Assembly (NCBI RefSeq): GCF_030540645.1
Contig: NZ_JAUNVV010000003.1
Coordinates: 25,099-76,430 of the forward strand
DNA: 51,332 bases
Direction: 5' to 3'
Source of the DNA: Arthrobacter sp.
Lineage (GTDB): Bacteria > Actinomycetota > Actinomycetes > Actinomycetales > Micrococcaceae
In this document: in pieces, positions 50,758 to 51,332 of the stretch
Layout of the letters: the number at the start of each line of letters is the position of its first letter
Numbering within the stretch: the stretch's first letter is position 1
The notes under the pieces: model-generated
The model's database searches: none
What the model was told of the DNA's origin: nothing
The model's input: the letters and a program-made list of their open reading frames with translations, nothing else
Position numbers and translations under genes: made by a program

Positions 50758-50943
50758 ATGGGACTCGGAGATAAGATCAGCAACAAGGCAGAAGAACTCA
50801 AGGGCAAAGCCAAGGAAGCTGCTGGCGACGCAACGGACAACACGAAGCTTCAAGCAGAAGGCGCAGCTGACCAGGCCTCGGCGAAAGCCAAGCAGGCCGG
50901 AGAGCACGTCAAGGACGCTGCCAAGGATGTTTTTGGCAAGTAG
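50758..50943 (+). CDS. CsbD-family stress protein
   Basis: A 61-residue highly charged, Ala/Lys-rich helical protein, MGLGDKISNKAEELKGKAKE onward, typical of CsbD, a family induced under general stress in many bacteria; molecular role unknown. AAGGAGG is a near-ideal ribosome site just before ATG 50758. The 223 bases upstream hold no other gene. A long hairpin terminator follows after 23 bases. Confidence 0.92.
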   Translation: MGLGDKISNKAEELKGKAKEAAGDATDNTKLQAEGAADQASAKAKQAGEHVKDAAKDVFGK

Positions 50944-50966
50944 GCACTAAGAGCTGCTTGGCACCA

Positions 50967-51001
50967 CTCAGGGGCCGGAACAAATTGTTCCGGCCCCTGA
51001 G
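50967..51001 (+). terminator. Long hairpin terminator after the CsbD gene
   Basis: A 17-bp inverted repeat (CTCAGGGGCCGGAACAA at 50967-50983, complement at 50985-51001) around a single central A. Its core GGGCCGGAAC recurs in the hairpin at 51238. Confidence 0.85.
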
Positions 51002-51052
51002 CCGTCTAACACCATCGCTTAACAGTTTTTGGATTTTCCCCCACTGTGCAGG

Positions 51053-51067
51053 TAGATTTTCGGCATG
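51053..51067 (+). promoter_or_regulatory. Predicted leaderless promoter of the 52-residue membrane protein
   Basis: TAGATT (51053-51058), six bases, then ATG 51065. TTGGAT at 51029-51034 is a fair -35 with 18-base spacing. No ribosome site precedes the start. Confidence 0.5.
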
Positions 51068-51223
51068 ATGGGATTAATAGTTGCTTTACTTGTTATCTGG
51101 GTCGTCTTGGCCGTCTTGGGCTTTGTTGTCAAAGGCCTGCTCTGGCTGGCCGTTCTCGCAATTGTCTTGTTCGTTGCAACAGCTGCGATTGGCTGGGTGC
51201 GGCGGAACATCACATCCAAGTAG
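51065..51223 (+). CDS. Small hydrophobic membrane protein
   Basis: A 52-residue frame beginning MMGLIVALLVIWVVLAVLGF, with two hydrophobic segments (about 3-20 and 26-43) and a basic end (GWVRRNITSK). It matches the pattern of short actinobacterial hydrophobic proteins of unknown function often found near stress genes. It is flanked on both sides by long hairpins with the same core, and by a predicted leaderless promoter, which supports it as a real single-gene unit despite its size. Confidence 0.7.
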   Translation: MMGLIVALLVIWVVLAVLGFVVKGLLWLAVLAIVLFVATAAIGWVRRNITSK

Positions 51224-51237
51224 TTCACAGCGTGGCA

Positions 51238-51277
51238 TGAGGAAGGGCCGGAACGTAAACGTTCCGGCCCTTCCTCA
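51238..51277 (+). terminator. Long hairpin terminator after the 52-residue gene
   Basis: A stem of up to 19 bp (TGAGGAAGGGCCGGAACGT at 51238-51256 with its complement at 51259-51277); in practice 17 bp with a small loop. It shares the GGGCCGGAAC core with the hairpin at 50967 and is the likely landing site of the intron that follows. Confidence 0.85.
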
Positions 51278-51279
51278 TG

Positions 51280-51332
51280 GTACGCCCAGCATGGGCATTT
51301 GCTTGGAGGTGAAAGTCCTCTGAAGGAGAAGG
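51280..51332 (+). mobile_element. 5' end of a group II intron (truncated by window)
   Basis: The last 53 bases start GTACGCCCAGCATGGGC and contain GGAGGTGAAAGTCCTC. This matches the 5' end of bacterial group II introns as I remember it from class C examples (GUGUGCCCGGCAUGGG followed later by a GGUGAGAGUCC stem). The small stem GCCCA-GCA-TGGGC (51284-51296) and the GAGG/CCTC stem around TGAAAGT are both present. Class C introns insert just behind terminator hairpins, exactly the position seen here. The reverse transcriptase gene would lie beyond the window. Confidence 0.72.

Follow-up and report, generated by a model that had tools for sequence, protein, structure and literature searches.

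Class C (IIC) group II introns habitually insert behind terminators, according to passages of PMC4424553 and PMC8919778. Their boundary consensus sequences are given in an excerpt of PMC4028801 as GUNYGCCNRGCAUGG at the 5' end and CCUACYCGAU at the 3' end. Near the 5' splice site a GC dinucleotide forms a long-range Watson-Crick contact with domain I, termed epsilon-epsilon' (PMC8637638, in extract).

The intron described here starts at the very end of the window, by which we mean the whole analysed stretch of 51,332 nt of Arthrobacter sp. DNA, and its 3' end was found on another contig, C100. It has both boundary consensuses in common with the B.h.I1-type class C introns (as described in extracts of PMC4424553 and PMC4028801): GTACGCCCAGCATGG at 51280 agrees with the 5' consensus, and CCTACTCGAT at the end of C100 agrees with the 3' one. 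The lineage also resembles the class in its hairpin-flanking insertion, in the CGC in domain V of the relatives, and in a reverse transcriptase (RT) that in the relative L044 has no endonuclease domain. We observed no class-defining difference; nt 3 is A, which falls inside the published GUNYG.

Close similarity was found to an intron of plasmid pYJN5-2 from Paenarthrobacter sp. YJN-5 (L003:4001-5905), with matches of 90.6% over the 5' 53 nt (E 2.9e-13) and 90% over the 3' 50 nt, and with the same start and the same hairpin-flush target. The RT of the plasmid copy (L003:4496-5870) is split in two frames, with no gene annotated there in the plasmid table, whereas any RT of the window copy would lie in the part missing from the assembly. 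The IIC-attC introns of Gammaproteobacteria (class name as in an excerpt of PMC7923331) are represented by a Klebsiella copy (L004) with a 48-nt match. This copy shares the GTACG start, RF02001 and RF01998, an RT with RVT_1 and GIIM, and a T at the site of the nt 3 partner described below; it differs in that it adjoins aadA2, not behind a perfect hairpin, and in that its RT is 44% identical to that of L044.

Our reading, to which we assign a probability of about 96%, is that the window ends in a mobile class IIC intron inserted just 3' of a terminator-like hairpin, which has a 52-aa ORF on one side and the convergent glnA on the other; the GTACG start of the intron is regular in the lineage and appears to be compensated by a partner base in domain I. 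The intron itself is ordinary, and nothing categorically new. The features concerned are the following.

51065..51223, + strand: 52-aa hydrophobic ORF upstream of the hairpin, with no Pfam match
51236..51279, + strand: target site, a perfect terminator-like 20-bp hairpin with loop TAAA, flush with the intron; the 5' exon ends in CATG; kept in the empty site
51280..51332, + strand: first 53 nt (start of domain I) of a class C (IIC) group II intron, truncated by the contig end; assigned from the pYJN5-2 match and the empty site in genome G016
51282, + strand: intron nt 3, an A, vs G in the general GUGYG; one side of a covarying pair, read on relatives, whose partner lies past the contig end
C100 3388-4863, strand opposite to the intron: glnA, glutamine synthetase (TIGR00653, 647.5 bits)

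The two intron ends and the relatives

The first-pass annotation had proposed a group II intron 5' end behind a terminator-type hairpin. The layout that it described, GTACGCCCAGCATGGGC at the start and a GGAGGTGAAAGTCCTC stem next, is indeed what 51280-51332 reads, and the proposal is borne out by the empty site in G016, the intron 3' end on C100, and full-length relatives in which an RT/maturase, domain V and a target of the same type are present. The final base of the window is the last base of contig C24 (76430 of 76430), one of the 164 contigs that make up the 3.55-Mb draft genome, and the window stops 53 nt into the intron because the contig stops there. With so little of the intron present, the lack of any Rfam match in the window at gathering thresholds is expected. 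The pattern GTACGCCCAGCNTGGGCATT, with up to two mismatches, occurred once in the 3.55-Mb genome; control matches numbered 0.

With the pYJN5-2 intron (L003, from 4001) as a query against the genome, the first 53 nt matched 51280 (91%, E 2.9e-13), and the stretch ending at base 1905 of the intron matched the end of C100 (4919-4870, minus strand, 90%, E 1.2e-11); the next best among the 21 matches listed had an E of 0.011. The last 50 nt of C100 (4919 bases) are an intron 3' end of the same lineage, with the 3' strand of domain V (CGTACGGTGGTGTG), a G+C-rich domain VI hairpin and the terminal CTACTCGAT, and these are followed by the 3' end of glnA, whose stop codon is 6 nt away. The genome thus yielded one intron 5' start and one 3' end, while the interior (≈1.8 kb) is absent from the assembly, in which domain V is represented by just 14 nt of its 3' strand. 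Searches of this assembly without the intron interior produced no match with RF00029 (domain V) and none with part of the L003 RT.

The same part of the L003 RT was used in a search of 395 family genomes, 35 of which had a match at E 1e-20 or better. In a set of 15 loci (L044-L058), all carrying an RT, the 5' end could be located every time; it was always GTACG and always directly behind an inverted repeat, and domain V and CTACTCGAT-type ends were present wherever the locus extended far enough. Two pairs of intron rows were identical, L046 and L074 (Paeniglutamicibacter psychrophenolicus) as well as L051 and L076 (Arthrobacter sp. VKM Ac-2550). For example, L044 has the RNA domains RF02001, RF01998 and RF00029 in this order (matches at 1087-1256, 1307-1396 and 2840-2912), with a complete domain V scoring 43.1 bits against a cut-off of 40. 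Its RT consists of RVT_1 and GIIM with no further Pfam match and passes the NCBI cut-off for group II RT/maturases (403 bits vs 300). The CGC of the relatives lies in the 5' strand of domain V (GAACCGCCG).

Within the genus, 5 of the 22 other genomes contain the 5' end, at six more sites in total; these copies start with GTACG (L037, L038, L041 and L042), GTATG (L040) or GTATC (L021). Two of them, L037 (genome G011) and L038 (G018), keep the 5' end and have no RT frame in ≈2.5 kb, and are likely 5' fragments or heavily rearranged copies. Three contig ends in same-genus drafts (L040, L041, L042) likewise fall inside an intron copy, by 121-174 nt.

The GTACG start had been called unusual. It does depart from the general GUGYG, having A at 51282 where that motif has G at nt 3; within class C it is ordinary, as GUNYG in the excerpt of PMC4028801, all 15 loci of L044-L058 and four copies of the genus demonstrate. 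Among 118 distinct IIC introns nt 3 was A in 36 and U in 3, so that a G at this position is not required in the class. A full-text literature search for GUACG together with group II intron returned no paper that concerned such introns by title. To judge from the sequences compared, this lineage regularly has GTACG at its 5' terminus, and the boundary is not aberrant.

The simplest reason for the contig end, and the most likely one, is that near-identical copies of the intron broke the assembly 53 nt into it. The site could also be a damaged or internally deleted intron, with the 5' 53 nt and the 3' 50 nt as remnants and no working RT, a possibility that we regard as unlikely but not negligible. 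It would agree with the lack of an RT relative of this lineage in the genome, with L037 and L038, and with the split RT of pYJN5-2. On the other hand, an assembly would normally run through a single short remnant, whereas here both contigs stop at ≈50 nt, as at a multi-copy repeat, and both intron ends are intact to the base.

A separate observation concerns the only RVT_1 match of the genome, a 522-aa retron-like RT on contig C2 (15365-16933; L007:2366-3934). This protein was ruled out as the missing intron RT, its best NCBIfam match being retron_St85_RT at 143.7 bits, below the cut-off of 235; it is possibly a retron or defence RT.

Covariation of nt 3 with domain I

Among 60 aligned intron 5' regions we found one column that splits all 26 introns with A at nt 3 from all 34 with G. 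This column corresponds to nt 257 of the intron, numbered as in L044, and belongs to the motif TTAYCYGGGGAG towards the end of domain I; introns with A3 have T there, and those with G3 have C. When introns from genomes, viral contigs and plasmids were added, the sample grew to 118 distinct introns, where the combination of nt 3 and nt 257 was G-C in 79, A-T in 35, T-A in 3 and A-A in one (L270); 117 of the 118 are therefore Watson-Crick. In the window copy position 257 lies past the contig end, and the pair is read on the relatives.

The 5' ends of the later sets were picked by comparing nt 5-17 with class consensus strings and by the GTNNG frame, a procedure blind to nt 3 and 4. The set behind a tree of 104 rows comprised 152 hits with the 12-nt element, of which 125 were kept (5' end missing in 27). 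A further set covered 93 loci, 69 of them without a domain I match, since short search patterns hit mostly other sequence; L274, L282 and L288 (matches of the GTTCG, GTTTG and GTATG patterns) are among these 69 and were left uncounted. Of 25 hits in this set, 2 had no 5' end and 5 more no element, leaving 18. The final set, used for a tree of 108 rows, retained 112 of 119 (7 without a 5' end); this tree excludes L202, L059, and RT stretches shorter than 250 aa or duplicating another one. L059 was not counted either, since the 5' end picked for it belonged to other sequence; it is the same copy as L021, with a GTATC start and T at the partner site.

Mutual information between nt 3-40 and the 12-nt element was computed for 90 distinct introns. 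The pair 3-257 ranked top at 0.94 bits, followed by 9-259 (0.91) and 8-260 (0.76); the latter two, together with 10-258, look like the basal stem of domain I. Between nt 4 and nt 256 there was no covariation, 256 being A in all 90 introns. Neither nt 3 nor nt 257 of L044 (intron start 1005) falls inside the three Rfam matches of that locus. The GNGA loop of a domain I hairpin was rejected as the partner of nt 3, as it reads GTGA or GCGA regardless of nt 3.

Such a correlation could reflect shared descent instead of a base pair. An earlier tree of 57 rows required a single change of the nt 3 label, and in an AU test on 83 rows, for which 22 named loci (L059, near-copies and long branches) had been set aside, a single A3 clade was not rejected (p 0.151). 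The 104-row tree gave two independent pairs, both concordant, a number too small to test. Wider sampling argues against descent as the explanation: in the 108-row RT tree nt 3 and nt 257 each change nine times, all six independent pairs on its starred branches agree in direction (sign test p 0.031), and the third pair type, U-A, is found in three introns. We therefore consider it quite improbable that descent produced the pattern.

Three viral contigs and one Cohnella plasmid (L158, L154, L157, L301) hold a small group of introns in which the A3-U and G3-C states stand side by side. The viral-contig introns L184, L346 and L356 start with GTTCG or GTTTG and have A at the partner of nt 3, the third Watson-Crick state.

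It is probable, in our view, that nt 3 of IIC introns forms a long-range Watson-Crick pair, its partner lying immediately within the basal stem of domain I, and that the pair has changed between the states G-C, A-U and U-A on six or more occasions. GUGYG would then represent a single state of two co-evolving bases and would not be an invariant signal. The covarying base lies ≈254 nt downstream of nt 3, near the 3' end of domain I, and the covariation (G-C where the intron starts with GUGYG, A-U in the present lineage) implies that the departure from GUGYG is compensated. We take the pair to be probably the IIC form of epsilon-epsilon'; since the neighbouring nt 4 and nt 256 do not covary, it may also be a separate contact.

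The empty site and the target hairpin

The first-pass annotation suggested comparing the site with related strains, and one genome of the same genus, G016, turned out to carry the hairpin joined straight to glnA. It matches window positions 50950-51279 at 92%, the match ending exactly at 51279, and C100 from the first post-intron base is 97% identical to the directly adjoining sequence of G016. There the end of glnA, CGGTGTCTAGCAGCC, comes directly after the hairpin (...CTTCCTCATG), and the intron is absent. Between the flanks no base has been lost or gained, so the breakpoints are 51279|51280 and the intron 3' end, with the insertion point between CATG and CGG. The intron is GTACG...GAT, and its boundaries are unambiguous.

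This empty site establishes the insertion, and because both flanks share it, C24 and C100 are taken as the two ends of one copy. The assembly leaves the two contigs unjoined, as it would if they ended in different intron copies and were not neighbours in this genome; we hold this to be very unlikely, given that the flanks adjoin in G016 with no base missing or added and that the genome yields one 5' start and one 3' end. That the 53 nt belong to a conserved non-intron gene or RNA common to all relatives can be dismissed, as they are absent at this site in G016, and since unrelated sites hold them in 5 of the 22 other genomes of the genus. The empty site and the differing target sites of the relatives suggest that the intron is mobile; by analogy with its family, it would have inserted immediately 3' of the palindromic hairpin by reverse splicing of the intron RNA into DNA.

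The hairpin has arms at 51236-51255 and 51260-51279, loop 51256-51259 and 20 perfect pairs. The intron had been placed two bases after it; the distance is in fact zero, the stem reaching 51279. The 50 nt upstream of the junction have a folding energy of -41.1 kcal/mol, a stability equalled by 0 of 1080 random 50-mers, and the folding of 51215-51332 had z = -8.4 against 200 shuffles. No T-run follows the hairpin in the empty site of G016. The stated preference of class C introns for terminator hairpins is a known habit in passages of PMC4424553 and PMC8919778, and we see it in the lineage as well: at 27 target sites, the one in this window among them, the upstream 50 nt had a median of -33.6 kcal/mol, compared to -12.6 for 1080 random 50-mers of the same sequences, and 26 sites (all except L049) were more stable than the 5th percentile of the background.

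A second inverted repeat of the same kind, yet with no intron behind it, is present at window positions 50967-51001 (15 bp, perfect, loop AAATT), behind a CsbD-like gene (50758-50943, PF05532).

Consequences for the locus and for class C introns

The odd contig end thus comes down to a routine mobile intron that sits at a terminator-like hairpin, and the empty site fixes both of its boundaries. Being palindromic and, in the empty site, 6 bp away from the glnA stop codon, the hairpin may serve as a putative terminator for glnA as well as for the 52-aa ORF. If the intron is full-length as in L003, the insertion would displace the hairpin from glnA by ≈1.9 kb; the domain VI hairpin of the intron, now directly behind glnA, could replace it.

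For class C introns in general, 39 of the 118 distinct introns would escape a search restricted to GTGYG, in a non-random sample with some loci fetched by GTACG or GTYCG patterns, and the variability of nt 3 helps in placing intron 5' ends in genomes. A partner base that changes along with nt 3 would be a simple reason why the class tolerates bases other than G at this position, and the pair 3-257 is open to test by compensatory mutation.
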